Source: a virus. Taken from it: a DNA stretch of 41,291 bases. Within the stretch, counting starts at the first letter, position 1. The number at the start of each line of letters is the position of its first letter. The DNA is taken from IMG/VR virus record IMGVR_UViG_3300020162_000890, positions 1-41,291 of that record. One strand, 5' to 3'. Positions 7,298 to 41,291 of the stretch are shown here, piece by piece. The notes below the pieces were generated by a model. The model had not been told where the DNA came from and made no database searches. It worked only from the letters and a program-made list of their open reading frames with translations. The position numbers and the translations under genes were made by a program.

Positions 7298-10200
7298 TTA
7301 GCTATATCTCCGAATGTTTCTTACAGTTGTATTAGGTTTCTTAGTAGTTTCTACAATGTGCATTACACCACCAAGTATCTCACCAACTTCTATATTTGTT
7401 TCAGATTTATTCATAATTGTTTTCTCTAATGAATCTAATTTATCAATAAGTAAGTTAGTTTCCCAATTGTTTTTAATCTGAATTGCACCATCACCAGACT
7501 TAACCAATTTACCTAACCTATGTTCTTCAGCTAATTTAGCTATTTCATAGGTAGTCATGTTGCCAGTCATAGCTGATAGTCTAGGATTTAATATCTTCTC
7601 ACTACCATCTACCCTAACAATGTAACCGTCTTTACCTTGCAAATCTGGATTACCTAATGCTGTTTTAACATCTGTTTCAGTACCCTTATAGAATGTTGGT
7701 AAAGTCTTAACGAATTGTGATAGTACAGTCATATCAGTTACAGTCTTAGTTAATGGATTTTTAATTTCTGGATTACTAGCATAAGAAGCATAAGTTGAAT
7801 AAACTGATTGTGCTAATTTAAGCATCTCTATTCTTCTTTGCTCTCTTTCAATGTTCTTCTGAATCCTAGCTTGTTCTTTTTCATTTAGTGCTAATGATTC
7901 TGTAGCTTCTATATTTCCATTTACAGCCAATTGAGTAAGCTTACTTTGTTTCTCCTTAACTTTATCTAGGTTAAGTCCTAATTGCTCTAATCTTCTTTCA
8001 GATTGAGTAACCATCATTTCAAGAATCAAGTTAATATACTCATAAACACTTTTGGCTGTATCTTTCATAGATTCCATACCCTCTTTAGCTGATTCAACTA
8101 TTTGCTCATTAATGTCTTTAGTTTTCTCTAGCTTTTCATCTTGAAGTTGTTTATACTCATAATTAGTTTCAGCATCTATAGCTTTAATCTTTGTATCAAA
8201 TTCTTCTTTTCTTTTAACCTCATTATCTGTTCTAGTCTTAGTGTTTTTTTCTTCAAACCTTTTAAAAATATCATTAACAGCATCTAAAGCTTTTTGCTGA
8301 CTAGCACCCAACTTTGCTTTTCTACTTGATTTTTGATTTTCATCTAAAGAATTCATATTGTCTACAGCAATCATATGATTTTGATAAGTTATTTCAACTT
8401 TCATTCTTTCCATATCTTTGAAAGCTTCTATTTGCTTATCATAAAATTCTTTTTCTTTATCTGATTTTTCTTTATATTCTTCTTCAAGCTTTTTCTTTTT
8501 ATAATTAGCTTCAATATCAATCTGATTTTTTCTTAGCTTTTCAATAGCATCTAAGTTTTGAATTATTTTTTGATATTCTTCACTACCTATAATCTGTGGT
8601 GCTATGTTTAGTAAAGTCTGGTCTAAACCTTCTTCAATTTGAATCCTCTCAAACTCACTACTAGCTTTTCTAATTTGCTTTCTATAATCTTCAATTATTT
8701 CTTGTGGGAATATATTACTTCCAATAATACCTTTTTCACCTAGATTATTTTTAATACCTAATCCATCTGGCATCTGAAATAAGTTAGACAAACCTCTCAT
8801 TCCTTGTTGAGTTTTCAAAAATGAATTGTCTTTATAGAAAAATAACTTAGCTAGTTTTGCTGACCTATCAACTGCTTTATCTAAAGATTTATTATATTCA
8901 TCAAGTTTAGTTTTATTCGCTGTTTCTTCTAAATCCCTTAAAGCTTGATTTACATCAATAACATATTCTTCTAAATCTTTAAATTCAAACTTAATAGCTT
9001 GTATTGGTGCTGTATAATTTTTAACAGCTTTACCAACTTTATCAGAAGCTTTTACTGTACTATCAGCAAAATTCTCTGTTAGAGTTTCACTATCTCTTAA
9101 TGAGTTTTTATAAGTTATAATCTCTTTGTTAATCTTAGCAATTTCATTAGTATAATCATTAAACTGCTTAATATCTATTGCTCTTTGGTCTCTAATAGAT
9201 TGATTATTTACATCTCCATATTCCTTTCTTATATCGTTAATATTTACAACTTTTTTTAAATCATTAAGCCAACTTTTATCATCAACAATAACTTCTTTAT
9301 TTGCCTTTACAGCTTTACTTAATTCTTTTTCATCCCTTAAAGGAATTGTCATATTTGTAAACTGACTTTTCTTAACAAAAGAAAATCTTTCTTTTTCTTT
9401 TTTTATTCTATCTTCCGTAAGCTTATTTATTCTAGCCAAAATAATAGCTTCATTTTCACTCCTTTTTAGTGCAAGTTTTTTATCAGCTTCTATTTGTAAG
9501 TCTTGTTTTTTATTTTTATCTTTTTCTTTATTTATTTTAACTGTGTACTTCAATTTAAGTTCGTCTGCTTCCAGTTCAATTTTACTTAATAACTTTTCAG
9601 CTTTTCCTCTACCTTTATCTATAGCTGTCTTATAGTTGTTATACTCATCCCTAGCTTGTTTCCATCCACTAGCAATGTCATATACTTTCATTGCAACATC
9701 AGTTAATACAGCAATTATTACAGAAGCACCAATCCCCTTTAAAGCACCTTGCAACCTACCAGCCGAAGCTGAAGCACCATCCATTGCTTCTTTACTCTTA
9801 AAGAACCCTTTTGTAACATCAAACAATGTTAGTGCAAATAACTTTAAATTACCTTGAGTTACAAAAAGTATAGTTTTGTAAGTAGCAAAAGAAGTAGTTA
9901 GTAAAACTAAAGCTTTTAATATAGAACCAATATTTTCACCTAAATACTTTATAGTTCCAGCTAATCTTTCAGTAGTCTTAATACCTTTACCAGCTTCATC
10001 AATTGTTAATACAATATTTGTTTTAAGCAAGTTCCAAGCACCACCAAGAGTTTTTAATTTATTAGCTGAAGCATTACCTAAAGTCTTTTCTATTTCTTTA
10101 CCAAACAAAGGAAGCACATCTTCACCCAACAATACACCATCTTGCAATAACTTGTTAAGTTCAACTTCTGTAACACCAATTGCTTTTGCCATAAGGTTAA

Positions 10201-21032: not shown

Positions 21033-22394
21033 TTATATTTCTATGTGTCTAAACATTGAACGTATAAATATCACCAATCCAGCAAGACAATCTGGTGCAT
21101 CATCATTTTTATTCTTGCCTTCTTGCGAAAATGAATATACATTGTCCATAAACCTTTGGTAGTAACTAGTTTCATTATTCACAAAGAAAAAGTAGTTGTT
21201 TATGACTGAACTAGCCATAATTATCCTAGTCATCTTGTTTTGTGTGTTATGAACTTGTAAAATACGTGTTCTAGTAGATTTCTGTAATGTTCTAGCAAAT
21301 ATTGCACCCATAGCATTAGATTCTACTCTACAGTAGTTAACTTTCCACTTAGCTAACATACCAGCACATAATGGAATCGTTACATCAGTATTTTCTTTGG
21401 TGTATAGGTAATCAACAACATAAATATCCTTATTTACAATCACAGCTACAACCATAGCAGTAAAGTCTTTCCCTTGGTCGGAAACATCTATGTAAGCCAC
21501 AGCACCTTGAATGTTTTTCTTAATAGCTTCAAAATCTCTAGCATCAATAATTTTCAAGTCTTTAAACAACCTACCTTTACTATCTACTGGAGTTTGCATA
21601 TATTCAGCAATCCAAATATCTGGATTGATTCTTTTCTTTATGTCATAGTATTGTTCCGTACTCATAACATCAGCACAGAATGTTTGTCCTTTTTCATCCA
21701 ATGCAGATATGATTATACTCTTATCATACCTTTTTTGCTCAATATTTCGACCAATCACATCATGAATAGACCATCTAGTACCTATGTCGATTACTGAACA
21801 ATTACGTTCCAAACGTGAATCATGCGTAGCTTCTTTCCATTGTAATATCCTCTCATTTTGGGTATCACTTAAAGCATCTTCCATACCACGATACAAGTCA
21901 TCCGTAATAGCTAGCATAGTAGCACCAAAACCAATAATCGTTCCACCAACACCAGCACCAAAATAACCAACTTGCCTAGAATTGGTAGTATTCCAACCTT
22001 GTAGGTTAGCTTTATCTGGTGCTAAGTCAAAATCTGGAAATACCATGGTAAACTTTTCTTGCTTTACAATATTTCTAACATCATACGAGAATTTAAGATA
22101 TAGAGAAGAAGTACAAGTATTTCTCATTATACTCTCTTTAGGATTGTTTCCTAATGACCATGCACAAAATAATGATGTGATATATGATTTACCAGCCCTA
22201 GGTGGCATACTTACTGAAAGTCCTCTAATCTTCTTTTCAGCTATCTCTTGGAAAGCTTCAGCTACTTGTCTTAGAAAATCTCTACTTCTAAAAAACTCTC
22301 CATCATAAAATAGGCAAAATTCCCAAAAGTTTCTTCTTGACAATTCAGCCCTTGCATACATTCTTAGTGCTTCCTTAATTTCTGTCTGTTCCAT
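21033..22394 (-). CDS. terL: Terminase large subunit
   Basis: ATP-driven DNA packaging motor with nuclease. 453 residues. Walker A is MPPRAGKS (63-70), Walker B-like MLAITDD (160-166) and a coupling TRWSIHDVIGR element (207-217). The RNase H-like nuclease domain shows YIDVSDQGKD (301-310, metal ligand D303), RVESNAMG (E358) and DDAPDCLAGL (431-440). The order and residues fit the Terminase_6 type. The spacer before its ATG is entirely an 11-bp repeat array, so expression or packaging may be linked to a factor binding there. Confidence 0.95.
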   Translation of the reverse strand: MEQTEIKEALRMYARAELSRRNFWEFCLFYDGEFFRSRDFLRQVAEAFQEIAEKKIRGLSVSMPPRAGKSYITSLFCAWSLGNNPKESIMRNTCTSSLYLKFSYDVRNIVKQEKFTMVFPDFDLAPDKANLQGWNTTNSRQVGYFGAGVGGTIIGFGATMLAITDDLYRGMEDALSDTQNERILQWKEATHDSRLERNCSVIDIGTRWSIHDVIGRNIEQKRYDKSIIISALDEKGQTFCADVMSTEQYYDIKKRINPDIWIAEYMQTPVDSKGRLFKDLKIIDARDFEAIKKNIQGAVAYIDVSDQGKDFTAMVVAVIVNKDIYVVDYLYTKENTDVTIPLCAGMLAKWKVNYCRVESNAMGAIFARTLQKSTRTRILQVHNTQNKMTRIIMASSVINNYFFFVNNETSYYQRFMDNVYSFSQEGKNKNDDAPDCLAGLVIFIRSMFRHIEI

Positions 22395-22449
22395 AATTTT
22401 TGCTTACGTTTTGCTTATACTTTGCTTACTGTTTGCTTCTAGTTTGCTT
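22395..22449 (-). repeat. 11-bp phased AAGCAAA array A (5 units) between terS and terL
   Basis: Read on the minus strand, five units follow each other without gaps: AAGCAAACTAG, AAGCAAACAGT, AAGCAAAGTAT, AAGCAAAACGT and AAGCAAAAATT. The GC dinucleotides fall at 22402, 22413, 22424, 22435 and 22446, exactly 11 apart. The array takes up 55 of the 58 bases between the terS stop and the terL ATG. The last four positions of each unit vary, so the heptamer and the spacing are what is kept. Confidence 0.95.
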
Positions 22450-22452
22450 CAA

Positions 22453-22947
22453 CTATTCACCCTCTGATAAGAATTTTCTTAATTCATCTTCACTAAGGTC
22501 GGATAAATCTGGAGTACTAGCCCTTTGCTCTATCTCTAGTGCGTGTGGTTTATAAGCATTGTTCATTACTTCACGATAAGCATTAGTATCACCCTCTAGT
22601 GCTTTCTGTATTTGTGCGAGGTGCATCCAGTATTCCAATTCTTGCTTCTCCGTTACACCAGTTACACTATTAGCTTTAGGTGTCATCATAGACAATATCT
22701 CAATGACAATACTACTTCTAGTCTTTTTGTGTCTACGGATTTCAGCCCTTTCCTCTCTAGCTTTATCTCTTTCAGCTATTTTATTCTTTAAATTGCCTAC
22801 TAAACCCTTTTGTCGTTCATAAACAACCTCATATTGGGGAGTATCATTATATTCCTCAACATTATCATCCAATTGCTTCTTCTCAATAGCCAAATGCTCT
22901 ATTTTAACGTTATTAGAGCCATTTTCAATGTTCATACCATCTTCCAT
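22453..22947 (-). CDS. Probable terminase small subunit
   Basis: Encodes 164 residues, helical and charged, directly before terL, where terS is expected. A basic region with RDKAREERAEIRRHKKTRSS (about 60-79) precedes a core helical segment (TEKQELEYWMHLAQIQKALE) and a C-terminal acidic tail (LSDLSEDELRKFLSEGE) like those that contact TerL or portal. I see no clear helix-turn-helix, so the call rests on position, size and composition. ATG at 22947 is used; a Met at codon 5 is possible. Confidence 0.6.
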   Translation of the reverse strand: MEDGMNIENGSNNVKIEHLAIEKKQLDDNVEEYNDTPQYEVVYERQKGLVGNLKNKIAERDKAREERAEIRRHKKTRSSIVIEILSMMTPKANSVTGVTEKQELEYWMHLAQIQKALEGDTNAYREVMNNAYKPHALEIEQRASTPDLSDLSEDELRKFLSEGE

Positions 22948-23349: not shown

Positions 23350-23439
23350 ATTAATAAACTATAATATCATAACTAATCAAATTGTTGAAAAAAAGTTAAT
23401 CAAATATTTTTTTCTTTTTACAACTCTCTTATATTAAAA

Positions 23440-23525
23440 TAATATTAGATATTATTAATAATATTATTATATCTATAATAATAATAATACTTATAATAAT
23501 AATAATATATATAATAATATAAGCA
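23440..23525. repeat. AT-only microsatellite tract (TAA/ATA)
   Basis: Long stretch of TAATAAT and ATAATA units with almost no G or C. It contains an imperfect palindrome from AGATAT at 23447 to ATATCT at 23474. Could act as a DNA unwinding element; no coding sense. Confidence 0.8.
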
Positions 23526-23617: not shown

Positions 23618-23705
23618 AAGCAAAAAATAAGCAGATGCGAAGCAAAATGTAAGCAAACGTAAAGCAAAAGCGAAGCAAATGATAAGCAAAATATATGCAA
23701 AAAAT
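23618..23705 (+). repeat. 11-bp phased AAGCAAA array B (8 units)
   Basis: Eight gap-free units on the plus strand with GC at 23620, 23631, 23642, 23653, 23664, 23675, 23686 and 23697. Six of the eight are AAGCAAA plus four variable bases; the second is AAGCAGA and the last ATGCAAA. Orientation is opposite to arrays A and C. Phased A-runs at near-helical spacing also predict bent DNA. Confidence 0.95.
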
Positions 23706-23879
23706 ATTTTTAAAAAATTAAGAGATTCTATTACTATCTCTCAATATTTACTTATTTAATCTATTATAAATTTATAATAAAAATCATTTTCATACAGAAA
23801 TTTTTTAGGCAAAATTCAATTCCAGATTCAAATAATTCCATCTTATCATCTTGTTAAACCCAACAAAACGTTAAGCATT

Positions 23880-23915
23880 AAGGAAACTAAGGATATTAAG
23901 GAAACAAAGGACACA
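23880..23915 (+). repeat. 9-bp tandem repeat AAGGAnAnn (4 units)
   Basis: AAGGAAACT, AAGGATATT, AAGGAAACA and AAGGACACA follow without gaps; AAGG starts at 23880, 23889, 23898 and 23907. No start codon opens a frame through it, although 9 is a multiple of 3 and the plus frame would read Lys-Glu-Thr-Lys-Asp repeats ending in TAA. Confidence 0.85.
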
Positions 23916-24103
23916 TAAACAACAGAAAAACTAATCATAAGCATAATACATGGTGTTATGATAAATAAACAACCAAAAAGATTATAAGTTTGTTATAAAA
24001 AAGTATTTTTTGATAAAAATTGTAGAGGGGTATATATAAATAATCAACTTCCACTTAGACCGAGAAAATCGACCTTTTAGCTGAAAATGAGCCAATTAAG
24101 CAT

Positions 24104-24136
24104 AAAAAAAGGGTTAAAAACTTAGTTCTAACCCTT
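24104..24136 (-). terminator. Terminator of the middle operon
   Basis: Stem AAGGGTTA/TAACCCTT (24109-24116 with 24129-24136), with seven T on the minus strand. It lies about 20 bp past the stop of the last gene of the middle operon. Confidence 0.85.
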
Positions 24137-24155
24137 AATTCTGTCTTTTTTAGTG

Positions 24156-24377
24156 TTAATTAATGAAATAAATTAGTAATAATATGGTATAAATTAGTGA
24201 TGCTCGTATAATTGAGCCTTTAATTTGTTCTTTATCACTTAACCAACTGGTTAAATTTTTACTTTCTATGTGGATTAATAGAGTTAATAATAACCTATCC
24301 AATATAAACAAACTAACTATCAAAGGAAATAATATTACAACCTTACTAAAAAGGTAGGTCATTTTTAGGTACTTCAT
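24156..24377 (-). CDS. Small membrane protein, two transmembrane segments
   Basis: A 73-residue protein with hydrophobic segments at about 9-35 (VVILFPLIVSLFILDRLLLT) and 55-72 (IIRASLIYTILLLIYFI), separated by a polar loop (ESKNLTSWLSDKEQ). It overlaps the SSB-like gene by 32 bp and is the last gene before the terminator. Small two-TM proteins of phages can be holins or host-membrane modifiers; nothing here decides between them. Confidence 0.55.
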   Translation of the reverse strand: MKYLKMTYLFSKVVILFPLIVSLFILDRLLLTLLIHIESKNLTSWLSDKEQIKGSIIRASLIYTILLLIYFIN

Positions 24378-24579
24378 TGCTTTCTTTTTTTACATATTTC
24401 TTACCATTACCAACGAAAATAAACTCATTTCCTAACTTAGATTTAAGCTGGATTGTATTCCCAAACTTATCAGGATTATCATTTATAAACATCGTAACGC
24501 TTATAAATTCATTCCCATTTTTTGAAACAAATTTTTCAATCTTTTTTAACTCTGTGAAATTCAAACTTATCGAATACAT
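24346..24579 (-). CDS. SSB-like small protein with DLPF tail
   Basis: A 77-residue, beta-rich protein: SISLNFTELKKIEKFVSKNG, FISVTMFINDNPDKFGNTI, FIFVGNGKKYVKKE, ending NEVPKNDLPF. The acidic C-terminal tip with final DLPF recalls the DDIPF-type tail by which single-stranded DNA-binding proteins recruit partners, and the body could be a reduced OB-fold. Short related proteins occur in phages of Bacteroidota. Its leader carries 11-bp array C. Inference only; no ssDNA-binding motif is decisive. Confidence 0.5.
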   Translation of the reverse strand: MYSISLNFTELKKIEKFVSKNGNEFISVTMFINDNPDKFGNTIQLKSKLGNEFIFVGNGKKYVKKESNEVPKNDLPF

Positions 24580-24607: not shown

Positions 24608-24640
24608 GTTTTTTGCTTATGCTTTGCTTATGCTTTGCTT
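24608..24640 (-). repeat. 11-bp phased AAGCAAA array C (3 units)
   Basis: Minus-strand units AAGCAAAGCAT, AAGCAAAGCAT and AAGCAAAAAAC, GC at 24637, 24626 and 24615. It lies 28 bp upstream of the SSB-like start codon, in the same orientation as array A. Confidence 0.9.
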
Positions 24641-27517: not shown

Positions 27518-27763
27518 AACAATTATTAAAAAATAATAAAAAAAAGTTTTAATTGTTGGGAGGTGCTTTTTTGAATAATGAAACACGCACGCAAATAACA
27601 AATATTTTTAAATATCCTAACAAATTAACATTTTTAACATAGGACCGAAAAAGTACATTTATATAATTTACCAATACTACCTCCCACTTGACCAGTAGAC
27701 TATTGCCTAAGATTCTTATGCCTAGGTCGTTTCCACAAATCGCTGTTTATACAAATTTGTATA
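27518..27763. other. Noncoding region between middle operon promoter and repeats
   Basis: No gene seen. It contains short inverted elements: GGGAGGT near 27559 with ACCTCCC near 27681, TAAGATTCTTA near 27710, and the palindrome ACAAATTTGT at 27751-27760 that runs on into TGTATATATACA. These could be operators; no stronger claim is possible. Confidence 0.4.
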
Positions 27764-27944
27764 TATACAGTTGGCTATAATAAATTTATTTTGCTGAAAA
27801 TTTGAAAAAATATTTTTTTTCCTTTATACGATTGGCTATAAAAAATTTATTCTGTTAAAAAATTGGTTATATACTGCTGGCTACAAAAAATTTATTTTAT
27901 CAAAAATTCCGTTTATATAGTGCTGGCTATAAAAAATTTAAGAC
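27764..27944. repeat. TGGCTATAAAAAATTTA iterated repeats (4 copies)
   Basis: Four direct copies on the plus strand with GG at 27773, 27834, 27879 and 27925 (spacings 61, 45 and 46 bp). Each is preceded by TATA(C/G) and 3-5 bases. The core is (T)TGGCTA(T/C)A(A/T)AAAATTTA, followed in three copies by TTnTnnTnAAAA. A fifth copy sits at 28400-28418. Similar direct iterons in AT-rich DNA serve as initiator sites in many replicons. Confidence 0.85.
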
Positions 27945-27980
27945 ATAAAAAAAAGGAGCTAGAACTTAATCTAACCCCTT
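27945..27980 (-). terminator. Terminator of the early operon
   Basis: On the minus strand AAGGGGTTAGA pairs with TCTAGCTCCTT using two G-U pairs, followed by at least seven T. The G-U pairs become mismatches in the opposite strand, so it is specific to minus transcription. It lies about 50 bp past the last early stop. Confidence 0.8.
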
Positions 27981-28028
27981 TTTCCAAAACCATTTGACAA
28001 GAAATCCGTACAAATATAATAAAATTAT

Positions 28029-28394
28029 TTAAAGATTGTACATTTTAGAAATTTCTTCATTAATTCCGTAATCAATTAATATCTTTTTACCAGATTCATC
28101 CTCACCCCAATTGGCTCTATTATACAAATCACACATCACTATGTTTAATTCTTCAATGTTATTCTTTACTCTAAATACATCTAGATGAAGAACCTCTCTA
28201 ACTGGTTTATATCGTTTCATACATACAACACCATACTTGAACCAATAAAGTTCGCCTATAAGGTTTAAATGCTTGTATTTATCCCATATATAAGCTTCTT
28301 GTAAGCATTGTAAGTAACCTCTAAGACTAATTGGAATCTTTACTACACGATTTTTGAATATTAGCACTACTCTGGTGCTTACCTTTATCTTCAT
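28029..28394 (-). CDS. Small protein with kinase-like sequence landmarks
   Basis: Encodes 121 residues, last gene of the early operon. Order of motifs recalls a shrunken protein kinase: VVLIFKNRVVKIPIS (a beta3-Lys-like strand), LQEAYIWDKYKHLNL (a helix C-like Glu), FKYGVVCMKRYKPV (hinge-like), and NRANWGEDESGKKILIDYGI (DYG in place of DFG). A full HRD catalytic loop is absent. Similar short proteins occur in other phages. It could be a binding domain without activity; the relation is my reading by eye. Confidence 0.4.
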   Translation of the reverse strand: MKIKVSTRVVLIFKNRVVKIPISLRGYLQCLQEAYIWDKYKHLNLIGELYWFKYGVVCMKRYKPVREVLHLDVFRVKNNIEELNIVMCDLYNRANWGEDESGKKILIDYGINEEISKMYNL

Positions 28395-34696: not shown

Positions 34697-35203
34697 TTAT
34701 TTTTTAATTATTTTTAATCTTTTTTTAATTTCTTCGTGCATAGTCTTGATTTCCAGTATGCTAAATTTTAATTTATTTTCACTTTGATTGTCCAGATAAG
34801 CTAAATTGTACTCTCCAATCCTATCAACTATCTTAATTCTGTATTTAATTAAGTTACCATGGAAGTGTTTATTGCATTGAATACATTGTCCATGTACATT
34901 GTACTCATCAAATCTTAGCATTTCACACTTAGTATCATAGAAATGTCCAGCATGATAATCTCTAATGTCTTTTAGAATAGCATTACAGCTGATGCATTCT
35001 TTACCTAAATCCCTATAACGAACAAAAGTGTTGAAGTCCTTTTGTAGTTTATCAAGTAAATCAGCCCTAGATTCAAGTGATTCAGAAAGCTTTTTCTTTC
35101 TTTCATTCCACTCTAACTGCTTCTTTATCTCAACATACTTTAAAGCACATTCAACACTACAACATTCGTTTTCAGATTTCTTTTTACATACTTTGCATTT
35201 CAT
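34697..35203 (-). CDS. ninG: NinG/Rap-like recombination protein
   Basis: Encodes 168 residues. N-terminal zinc-finger-like KCKVCKKKSENECCSVEC, a coiled coil, then the NinG core: LQKDFNTFVRYRDLGKECIS, CNAILKDIRDYHAGHFYDTK, CEMLRFDEYNVHGQCIQCNK and HFHGNLIKYR. HxGH and paired Cys suggest an HNH-like metal site. The lambda relative (Rap) is a branched-DNA nuclease for phage recombination. Starts with ATGA coupling to the gene upstream. Confidence 0.9.
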   Translation of the reverse strand: MKCKVCKKKSENECCSVECALKYVEIKKQLEWNERKKKLSESLESRADLLDKLQKDFNTFVRYRDLGKECISCNAILKDIRDYHAGHFYDTKCEMLRFDEYNVHGQCIQCNKHFHGNLIKYRIKIVDRIGEYNLAYLDNQSENKLKFSILEIKTMHEEIKKRLKIIKK

Positions 35204-35940
35204 ATCTGAATATTATTTTCTATACCATACTCTACCATGAGTTGAGCATATATTCTTTCTGCTGTGAATAGTGTATGTTCAAGTTTTTTCTTTTCATCAT
35301 AAACTCTAAATTTCTTAACAGCTTCAATCTGTAATTCCTTACATTTTTCTGGACTTACTTTCCCTCTAAACCTATTAAAGATTGCTTTAGCTTGGAATAT
35401 ATCGCCTAACCACTCTCCTAGTCCTAGAGAAGCTTTATATACGTTTAAAGCATTGGTTTCAAACTCATCTTGCTTAACCTTTGTTTCTTCTGCAATCCTC
35501 TCATCCTCTAAGATTCTTTTTTGCTCATTTGATATTTCCATCTTTATAACTGAATATTGTTTTATTGGCTCTATCAAATCTGACTTAGTTAGATTTCTCC
35601 AATCAGTCCTTTGTTTAGAGAATCTCTCGTAAGCATATTCAACATCACTTAATGTTAGCTTGCTAAAGTTCTTTGTTATCTCTGTAACAACTGCCTTAAT
35701 TAGTGCATCACTTAAACTTGTAGCTTTAATTCCAAAATGAACATCTGCTGAATTAATAATCACCTCATAAATGCTTACTGCTAATTCTACTTGGTCTATG
35801 TAATCTCTTATCTGTATTCCAGATGAATGCCTATGACAATCTTGTTCGCTTACACTACTTAACCTTGCCACCAACCTGCTGTAGCAACTTTTTTCTAAAT
35901 TCATCAACTGCTGTGAGTTGAGTATCATTCCTCGTTCCAT
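35200..35940 (-). CDS. Replication-region protein, unknown
   Basis: Up to 246 residues; a later ATG (35904) would reduce overlap with the upstream gene from 86 to 50 bp. Helical, with SDVEYAYERFSKQRTDWRNL and QAKAIFNRFRGKVSPEKCKE. Its place between the DUF6291-like and ninG genes fits a replication accessory role, perhaps a helicase loader substitute, but no Walker or DnaC-like motif is present. Family unknown. Confidence 0.5.
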   Translation of the reverse strand: MERGMILNSQQLMNLEKSCYSRLVARLSSVSEQDCHRHSSGIQIRDYIDQVELAVSIYEVIINSADVHFGIKATSLSDALIKAVVTEITKNFSKLTLSDVEYAYERFSKQRTDWRNLTKSDLIEPIKQYSVIKMEISNEQKRILEDERIAEETKVKQDEFETNALNVYKASLGLGEWLGDIFQAKAIFNRFRGKVSPEKCKELQIEAVKKFRVYDEKKKLEHTLFTAERIYAQLMVEYGIENNIQI

Positions 35941-36541
35941 TTATAATCTTATTTTTCTTGTTTTCATAATCCCAATGCCTATCATTCCATAACCTCAATC
36001 TTCGCTTAGTATCCCATGTTTTCTGTAACTCCCACTTCATCTTACTTCTAGCTAAGTTTGGCTCACTCCAGTAGTCTATAAATCCATCAATTACCTTCTG
36101 AACAAATAAATCCTCATGTAGCTTAACATCAGCTATAAACAGTTCTTTACGTTTGAGAAGATTAACTTCTTTCAGATTTCTATTATCATCAACATCATAA
36201 TGTGATAACTTAGAAACAGTACCTTTTAAGTTCTGGTCGTTTATATTTGCTAGCTTCTGTGCATCATCTTTAGCAATCTTTTTAATACGTTTCTTTTCCT
36301 CATCTTTCATCTTAATTGTTACACCATTCTTGAACTTCTTAATGTTAGCATCTAGCTGTGGTCTAAGAAGCATGAATATAGTTTTAAGGTGATTAGGTAA
36401 CTCTGGCTCTACAAAGTTCAGTCCGTAATTAAAAATAGCTGAATAAACCATTCCTTTTTCTTCAAAGTTTAAGTGTTCTATCGCTTCATAAAATCCACGA
36501 TAAAACAACATATTACTCCTTTTCGCTTCTTCCGATTCCAT
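35855..36541 (-). CDS. DUF6291-like phage replication protein
   Basis: A 228-residue protein from ATG 36541 (a TTG start upstream would invade the previous gene further). Residues 11-70 fit DUF6291: MLFYRGFYEAIEHLNFEEKG, YSAIFNYGLNFVEPELPNHL, FMLLRPQLDANIKKFKNG. The rest is basic and helical with KWELQKTWDTKRRLRLWNDR, suggestive of DNA binding. Similar proteins replace primosome organisers in phage replication modules. It follows the DnaA-like gene, so the two may form the initiation pair. Confidence 0.65.
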   Translation of the reverse strand: MESEEAKRSNMLFYRGFYEAIEHLNFEEKGMVYSAIFNYGLNFVEPELPNHLKTIFMLLRPQLDANIKKFKNGVTIKMKDEEKKRIKKIAKDDAQKLANINDQNLKGTVSKLSHYDVDDNRNLKEVNLLKRKELFIADVKLHEDLFVQKVIDGFIDYWSEPNLARSKMKWELQKTWDTKRRLRLWNDRHWDYENKKNKIINGTRNDTQLTAVDEFRKKLLQQVGGKVK

Positions 36542-36908
36542 CTTGACTAAAATTATATTCTTCAACCCATATATACTTTTTCTTATCTGCTGATACAACT
36601 GGATATATACGTCTGTAAATTATATCATTAAAATTAGCTTCTTCTTCAGTCAAATCATATTCTTTTCTATTATTAAGCAAATGTATAATGCTCGTATGAT
36701 TTTTCATGCACAAAACATAAGCAATCTCATCTAATGTTAGACCTAGCTTATTTAGCTTTCTTGAAGCTATTTGTCTAATATTAGTCATCTTCATATTCTT
36801 ATGATTCATAGCCAATGGACTGCTAAAATACATTCTATATACATCAATCTTTTTCAACTGCTCTTGAAAAGCATCATCCATTAATTGCTCTAATTTATAT
36901 CTGCTCAT
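36513..36908 (-). CDS. DnaA domain IV-like DNA-binding protein
   Basis: Encodes 131 residues from ATG 36908. Residues about 45-90 read TNIRQIASRKLNKLGLTLDE, IAYVLCMKNHTSIIHLLNNR, matching the C-terminal DnaA helix-turn-helix (R-x-x-A-x-x-L, LxEIA, xxHTSIIH, equal to the DHSTVIHA element that reads DnaA boxes). No AAA+ part is present. It may bind an origin and attract host replication proteins, or regulate. Neighbour of the DUF6291-like gene. Confidence 0.7.
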   Translation of the reverse strand: MSRYKLEQLMDDAFQEQLKKIDVYRMYFSSPLAMNHKNMKMTNIRQIASRKLNKLGLTLDEIAYVLCMKNHTSIIHLLNNRKEYDLTEEEANFNDIIYRRIYPVVSADKKKYIWVEEYNFSQDGIGRSEKE

Positions 36909-37080
36909 TTCTTTTGTCAATTACTTGTTTAACATCAAATACAATTCTATAATCTGCTGAATGATTATTTTCTTGTAAAAATTTTTCCAATTCCCAGCTT
37001 TCTGTATAAGCCAGTGTGTAGACGTATAGATTTTGGTCGTAACCATCTACTACTGCTATCGTTTTTAAATTCTGTTCCAT
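36895..37080 (-). CDS. Small early protein, 61 residues
   Basis: EQNLKTIAVVDGYDQNLYVY, then TLAYTESWELEKFLQENNHS: reads like a small alpha-beta fold. The other frame over the same bases (end of the preceding gene) looks less protein-like, so this is the probable true frame here. Overlaps the DnaA-like start by 14 bp. Confidence 0.5.
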   Translation of the reverse strand: MEQNLKTIAVVDGYDQNLYVYTLAYTESWELEKFLQENNHSADYRIVFDVKQVIDKRNEQI

Positions 37081-40144: not shown

Positions 40145-41291
40145 TTATGCTACGGAATAAACTCCAAATTTATTATATAAATAAAACTCTCCACTATTTG
40201 TTACTGGTGTTCCCATACATCTACTAGCAAAGAAATTTAAACCTTGTGTGTGTAATGGTAAATCATTTGTTAACGTACCCTCTGCTATTGCATTAGTTTC
40301 AAGATTAACTATTCTGTAATGTACAGATGATGAATTTACTGGATTGTAAATCTGAACTTGATAAATTGTTGTTAAAGCACTACCAGATGTTCTATTTGCT
40401 GGAAAGTTAACACCTAAATCTACTTTAGTACAAGTACCAGTAGCATCATTCGTAAACACTTGTAAATTTGTATCTAAAGCATCTGAACCAATACCAATAA
40501 CATTAGTTAAAGAAGATACTAATACAGCATCTGTATAGGTTAAATCAGTTGTTACTCCAGCCATACCAAAGAATTGTCGACAACCACTACCATACCCAGC
40601 ATCAGATATAGCAAAAGAACAAACAAATCTAAATCCACCACCAACATACCACAACAAAGCTGAACCCCTAGTACCAGTATATCTACCAGTTGAAACTACT
40701 GTAGCATAGTATCTTAGTCTGATATTTTTCAAGTTAAAAGGTGTACTAGCAACTGTTTGTGCTTGAGTTGAAGCTGTAGTAGAAGCTGTTATACCACCTT
40801 CTGTTGTTACAGAACTTGAATTGTTAGCATAAGTTATTCCTCTAAAAAACTCTCTAGCACTAAACTTAAATAAATCTACAGAAGCTGACGTTGTTAAATT
40901 ACCATTTATATAAAATTCAGTAGCACTTACAGCTATAATACTTACTACACCATACTTTGAAGCTGTAGTATATGTTCCAGTACCACTATTTATAGTTACT
41001 CCTACACCAGCTGTTATTGTTGTTTGTCCATCACCATAAGGGATATATAAGAATTGGTCGCCACTAGAAAAAATATTTGCTGGAATTGTTAATGTATTAG
41101 GTGTTGCTGAATCTATTTCAACAAGTTTTGCTCTATCAGAAAGTTGTAAAGTATATGAAGCATTTTGTCTATTTCTAGGTATGTTCTTATCTAATTTGCC
41201 ATTAAAAGTATTCCAATCAGTAGAGCTTAACCAACCATCAGCAGAAGTAGTAGCTTGCCCTAAAACAGATTTAGCTGTACCATTTTTCCAT
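40145..41291 (-). CDS. Tail fiber / receptor-binding protein, C-terminal part (starts at 1157)
   Basis: Codons 386-734 of the fiber whose start is at 1157. The first piece (IPRNRQNASYTLQLSDRAKL and ATPNTLTIPANIFSSGDQFL, about 390-440) aligns with the C-terminal module of the 209-residue protein. Then Thr/Ser-rich beta sequence and, from about 545, a globular end (RLRYYATVVSTGRYTGTRGS, GGFRFVCSFAISDAGYGSGC) with the look of a receptor-binding tip. Positions 41193-41291 repeat 1-99 and must be counted once. 2205 bp in total gives an intact frame. Confidence 0.85.
   Translation of the reverse strand, partial: WKNGTAKSVLGQATTSADGWLSSTDWNTFNGKLDKNIPRNRQNASYTLQLSDRAKLVEIDSATPNTLTIPANIFSSGDQFLYIPYGDGQTTITAGVGVTINSGTGTYTTASKYGVVSIIAVSATEFYINGNLTTSASVDLFKFSAREFFRGITYANNSSSVTTEGGITASTTASTQAQTVASTPFNLKNIRLRYYATVVSTGRYTGTRGSALLWYVGGGFRFVCSFAISDAGYGSGCRQFFGMAGVTTDLTYTDAVLVSSLTNVIGIGSDALDTNLQVFTNDATGTCTKVDLGVNFPANRTSGSALTTIYQVQIYNPVNSSSVHYRIVNLETNAIAEGTLTNDLPLHTQGLNFFASRCMGTPVTNSGEFYLYNKFGVYSVA
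41193..41291. repeat. 99-bp terminal overlap, right copy
   Basis: Identical to 1-99. Shows that the contig closes on itself; the unique genome is 41,192 bp. Confidence 0.95.

Follow-up and report, generated by a model that had tools for sequence, protein, structure and literature searches.

Phased repeat arrays beside the terminase genes

The window, i.e. the whole 41,291-nucleotide stretch of the viral record IMGVR_UViG_3300020162_000890 analysed in this study, has shown the presence of three arrays of the heptamer AAGCAAA with an 11-bp period, which together span less than 2.25 kb (22.4-24.6 kb) at the early/late gene junction and are all non-coding. Array A (23618-23705, plus strand) consists of eight AAGCAAANNNN units; it was also found by Tandem Repeats Finder and by a generic chain finder. 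This array had been noticed in the original prediction and its exact phase was confirmed: the GC dinucleotide recurs at every expected coordinate and six of the eight heptamers are exact, the other two being AAGCAGA (unit 2) and ATGCAAA (unit 8). Two further arrays on the other strand had been overlooked. Array B (22399-22449, minus strand) consists of five AAGCAAANNNN units, all exact, which fill the spacer between terS and terL and end just short of the terL start codon, and array C (24612-24640, minus strand) consists of three such units, also exact, located 32 bp upstream of the start of a 77-aa ORF (24346-24579). Arrays B and C lie 1.2 kb and 0.9 kb from array A respectively, directly before start codons and in the orientation of the respective gene. 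A whole-record scan found no further AAGCAAA array at 11 bp in the remainder of the record. The longest chain of a 7-mer at period 11 comprises five units in the window, whereas chains of any 7-mer did not exceed two in 200 first-order Markov sequences, each of window length.

The terminase large subunit gene (terL, 21033-22394, minus strand) was recognized by its match to phrog_38 (E 2.9e-77). The gene at 22453-22947 (minus strand) probably encodes the terminase small subunit (terS), as it precedes terL and its product has the C-terminus DLSxLSxDELRxxL found in the pre-terL genes of relatives; its only profile match is a weak one to phrog_2412. Array A is placed 0.67 kb upstream of terS within 0.8 kb of gene-free DNA. 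Next to this array are the 60-mers with the highest AT content in the window, and the tract at 23431-23522, which is the AT maximum of the genome (97% AT at 23451-23520) and contains AAT-type simple repeats, is a candidate DNA-unwinding element. The bend that had been predicted at array A agrees with the wedge model, in which the array falls in the most bent 0.25% of the 105-mers of the window. In the same model the most strongly curved DNA of the window (23926-24180) starts in the gene-free stretch of array A and lies 0.2-0.5 kb from the array. The gene-free stretch also contains ATTAAGGAAACAAAGGAT twice, as near-identical copies, at 23877-23911. Elsewhere, a 46-bp unit is present in 2.4 copies at 27833-27940, in the intergenic gap 27601-28029. 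No GC-skew switch is visible at array A, though nearly all genes lie on one strand. DnaA boxes are absent at the arrays, with one-mismatch sites only scattered elsewhere, and the Rfam scan gave no match. An exact 99-bp direct repeat is present at the record ends (1-99 and 41193-41291) and the two ends lie next to each other when mapped to a 41,175-bp relative (L209), so the record represents a complete circle of 41,192 bp.

Absence of a phased array at this place in related phages would have spoken against the original prediction; all three arrays are, however, retained in close relatives, and contigs whose TerL is 96-99% identical to that of the window retain whichever arrays they cover. In L122 array A comprises eight units, in L123 and L124 nine, the difference being exactly 11 bp with almost unchanged flanks. 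Array B stays before terL in L121-L125, and in L121 and L122, where a 79-aa lipoprotein-like gene is inserted between terS and array B (terL offset -298 to -59 in L121), the array is still attached to terL. The close relatives in which TerS is complete all encode the same TerS protein. In phages with 60-70% identical TerL no array was found at terS/terL, and terS runs straight into terL. No informative nucleotide relative was found among isolate phages.

Association of the motif with replication initiator genes

Three exact units were found in at least 120 stretches of IMG/VR. Among the matches listed, the array is in nearly every case contained in a single ORF, usually 180-310 codons long, on the same strand and soon after the N-terminal domain. 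BLAST clustering placed 105 of the 106 ORFs with an array together; it was computed with the low-complexity filter off, so that repeated linkers may help to join this cluster. In Pfam, many of these ORFs belong to DUF6291 and others to DUF1376, Lin1244_N, DnaB_2 (replication initiation and membrane attachment) and Phage_rep_org_N. Since these families differ in their N-terminal domain, it must be that either one motif serves several folds or another factor reads the motif. The in-gene arrays are followed by AT-rich repeats, with 79% AT on the 3' side of the array against 65% in the domain.

An unbiased set was obtained by picking DUF6291 genes from viral contigs and GTDB genomes by their N-terminal 73 residues only, after which the DNA behind the domain was examined. 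Among the non-redundant viral genes, 48 of 61 had at least three AAGCAAA units spaced by 11 bp, as had 16 of 76 genomic ones. The same genes gave no array at periods of 9, 10, 12 or 13 bp, none on the opposite strand and only 0-2 with the reversed motif. Positional identity behind the domain peaks at lags of 11, 22 and 33, and a second series at 6, 12 and 18 arises from AATGTA-type AT-rich repeats after the array. Where AAGCAAA is missing from a DUF6291 gene, its place is often taken by a different iteron (such as AACCAAA or AAGCGAA), and the spacing from AACC to AACC in the linkers is 11 bp in 75 instances against 13 for the next value. The linkers of L241, L252, L261, L236, L309, L313, L290, L317, L345 and L346 carry iterons of the types AAGCGAA, AACCAAA, AACCCC, AACAACC and AACCAxTGGTT. 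The AACC class also occurs in a phage in culture, the Nitratiruptor phage NrS-3. Iteron class tracks the domain tree, with 14 changes against 36.0 in shuffles and none of 500 shuffles as low, a result to be read with caution as the tree is built on few columns and includes near-copies. A comparison of iteron classes could reveal the specificity of the initiator domain.

Neighbouring genes and homologues also point to replication. In relatives, DUF6291 is followed directly on its 3' side by a gene for a DnaB helicase, for a primase-helicase of the Toprim-DnaB type or for an AAA ATPase, and C-terminal homologues in isolate phages are annotated as replisome organizer (Ruminococcus phages) or as O-like replication initiation protein (Bacteroides phage BS-TP2). 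When 31 whole records were searched for two exact units, a pattern that can miss mixed-unit arrays, 25 of the 26 other array-bearing phage records showed a single cluster, mostly inside the initiator gene. The sole record with three clusters, all outside the initiator gene, is a 41-kb relative of the window (G010), whose initiator is 100% identical to that of the window over 222 residues and whose own initiator gene has no array.

The original prediction had held that an 11-bp period rules out a coding repeat. This does not apply, as most relatives have the array inside coding sequence, where it is read in all three frames because 11 is not a multiple of three; the encoded linker peptide is K-Q-x-x-S-K-x-x-A-K. 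In the protein-selected genes the arrays begin in all three codon phases. The serine codons of the linker are AGC in 88% of cases against 22% elsewhere in the same genes, a contrast computed on the protein-selected genes after the DNA-selected set was dropped as circular, and it is therefore the DNA and not the protein that is selected. Across 602 units, the four spacer bases are almost free and the seven motif bases almost fixed, which is partly by construction since the loci were selected by the motif.

The window itself encodes one such protein, located ~12 kb from the arrays (35855-36598, minus strand; PF19808, E 2e-14, above cut-off). It is 38% identical to array-bearing proteins (E 7e-36), and its domain belongs to a supported clade whose other members are nine AAGCAAA genes and two weak ones. 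Compared with its nearest homologues, the protein retains the N-terminal domain and the C-terminal part but lacks the iteron linker, and no in-gene array is present. Directly upstream lies the gene of a small protein with a weak match to the DnaA C-terminal helix-turn-helix (36513-36920, minus strand; PF08299, E 0.0026, below cut-off), and the gene just 3' (35200-35940) has no recognised helicase or other domain in the scans. The AF2 model of the DUF6291 protein is of moderate quality (pLDDT 75, pTM 0.34). Sequence and fold searches of the PDB with it gave no match, and Foldseek against predicted viral structures returned DUF6291 proteins first, followed by DnaD, replisome organizer and DUF1376 proteins, the latter at weak E-values. 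Our literature search found no paper on DUF6291 or on AAGCAAA repeats. By its association with the motif, the DUF6291 protein of the window is proposed to be the cognate of the arrays.

Role of the arrays and rival explanations

The arrays are very probably the iterons of an origin of the lambda-O/SPP1/TP901-1 type, predicted as sites of the DUF6291 initiator that have moved out of the initiator gene. The original prediction had named TerS at a pac site, an initiator or a late activator as the possible binding protein; of these, the initiator is strongly supported by the association of the motif with initiators in many phages, and nothing ties the motif to TerS in general. How the protein binds, how the DNA melts, how the helicase is loaded and which part each of the three arrays plays are inferred as follows. 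One DUF6291 protomer would occupy each AAGCAAA on one helix face, every 11 bp, and the bound initiator would wrap or bend the DNA of array A into an O-some-like complex. This complex may then melt the adjacent AT-rich tract, where the replicative helicase would be loaded. The iterons, which in most relatives lie in the linker-coding DNA that follows the N-terminal domain, would have been lost from the initiator gene of the window and would now be represented by the three intergenic arrays. Array A, with its eight units, AT tract and curved DNA, is likely the origin. Arrays B and C are likely secondary sites for the control of initiation, for fork arrest as at SPP1 oriR or for repression of terL and the 77-aa gene, and could hold extra initiator. 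Several points count against the iteron reading: the array-bearing Pfam families differ in their N-terminal domain, GC skew shows no switch at array A, the model of the DUF6291 protein is only moderate and has no PDB match, the gene just 3' of the DUF6291 gene of the window lacks a recognised helicase domain, array B touches the terminase genes, and arrays B and C have no clear origin role.

Regulation of transcription is one of the rival explanations. The arrays may be operators through which the DUF6291 protein or another phage regulator controls terL, the 77-aa gene and the leftward late transcripts with no origin function, as suggested by the location of arrays B and C directly before start codons, in the orientation of the genes and at the early/late junction. 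However, array A is not so placed and has an AT tract, the array of relatives lies inside a gene, and no Bacteroidota-type promoter (TTTG-N17-21-TANNTTTG) is found in 22.0-25.2 kb. As an account of all three arrays it appears improbable; the iteron reading, for its part, leaves room for arrays B and C to act as operators.

By position, the strongest rival is a packaging site (pac), because arrays B and A flank terS: TerS rings would bind the 11-bp repeats on both flanks of this gene, and cutting by TerL would take place nearby. Array B lies between terS and terL, and array A 0.67 kb upstream of terS; B is fixed before terL in all close relatives, even where the 79-aa gene separates it from terS. 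An unrelated contig that has no DUF6291 match also carries an AAGCAAA array where a TerS-like gene begins (L066:7799-7838), the single case that speaks for packaging, and the pac of SPP1 overlaps gene 1, its terS (PMC6316719). A location in or beside terS, as expected of a pac site, is thus found in the window, but the motif does not go with TerS across phages: nearly all motif-bearing phages link it to replication initiators, the array is missing at terS/terL in relatives whose TerL is 60-70% identical, and the 25 single-cluster records have theirs mostly in the initiator gene. We therefore consider it quite unlikely that the arrays are the packaging site, with some chance of a pac role for those beside terS and terL, array B among them. 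The moved iterons might also join replication and packaging, with the initiator at A and B starting theta replication and arresting forks, and with concatemers beginning and being cut there, so that origin, fork barrier and packaging entry would coincide; this extension of the iteron reading is speculative and rather doubtful.

A partition centromere is a far less probable explanation. The parC of plasmid R1 consists of 11-bp direct repeats bound by ParR, with repeat arrays in more than one place, and it resembles the window in repeat length and in having arrays at more than one site. No ParA, ParB, ParM or ParR match was obtained among the scanned proteins of the window, and the motif of the relatives belongs to initiator genes, which makes this explanation highly improbable. 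Chance or neutral tandem-repeat expansion, to which the difference of exactly one unit between relatives would correspond as in slippage, has a negligible probability, as three arrays share one motif and one period, are kept in relatives with a free spacer against a fixed motif, and are tied to one protein group, and it is excluded by the test on protein-picked genes together with the serine-codon and phase results.

If the arrays are iterons, as preferred here, DUF6291, a family named only as unknown, would gain a testable function, namely replication initiation with a known target DNA, and by the same logic the phage DUF1376 and Lin1244 proteins carrying the array would have the same function. 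In very many uncultured phages the origin would be indicated by a run of at least three AAGCAAANNNN or AACCAAANNNN units. The clade of the window would be an example from nature of an origin that has left its initiator gene, and, as its iterons lie apart from the sequence coding for the linker, it speaks for an action of the array as DNA rather than as peptide. A possible intermediate is seen in L266, a record with a single DUF6291 domain, which has an in-gene array and, ~9 kb away, a sixty-unit AAGCAAA-type copy of 660 bp (543-1202). The external copy is followed by the AT-rich repeats of the DUF6291 gene and by the part of that gene which comes after them, lacks the N-terminal domain and has TAG stops inside the units; it may represent a detached and expanded origin copy. 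In L037, five identical AAGCAAACTTA units are located between genes (8679-8729), 1.3 kb from a Lin1244-type initiator-like gene, and this may be a separate instance of iterons located outside the gene.

Comparison with known phage origins

The statement of the original prediction that no phage element of this form has been described was too strong, since direct-repeat origins inside initiator genes are known for lambda, SPP1, TP901-1 and Tuc2009. In the Lactococcus phages TP901-1 (ORF13) and Tuc2009 (Rep2009), the replisome organizer binds direct repeats in its own gene (PMC8965321). This is the arrangement proposed for most relatives of the DUF6291 protein of the window, whereas the repeats of the window itself lie outside the gene. 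In ori-lambda and the origins of Stx phages, the iterons are placed in the middle of gene O, flanked by an AT-rich tract and curved, and their number varies between relatives, adding residues to the protein (PMC7466680). The iteron sequence is different there, and the iterons of the window are intergenic.

Origins outside the initiator gene are also known. In PICI the iterons and the AT-rich region lie outside the initiator gene, directly after the 3' end of rep, and the AT region has one iteron set on each side (PMC6092414); the window shares the position outside the gene, but its arrays are ~12 kb away. In the Bacillus phage SPP1, gp38 binds oriL inside its own gene and also oriR, ~13 kb away, and it has been proposed that gp38 bound at oriR stalls forks and initiates the synthesis of concatemers (PMC6316719). 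As SPP1 oriR lies outside the gene, in-gene repeats are not obligatory for an iteron origin. Such repeats are absent in the window and present in most of its relatives, and three other features of an iteron origin are found in the window, i.e. direct repeats of fixed spacing, an adjacent AT-rich element recognized from the sequence only, and a cognate initiator in the same phage, assigned by association. Both copies are kept in SPP1, whereas the clade of the window has no in-gene copy and has three external arrays of mixed orientation. SPP1 oriL and oriR are like the window in combining direct repeats with an AT-rich unwinding element, and the oriR distance of ~13 kb compares with ~12 kb between the arrays and the proposed initiator gene of the window (PMC6316719).
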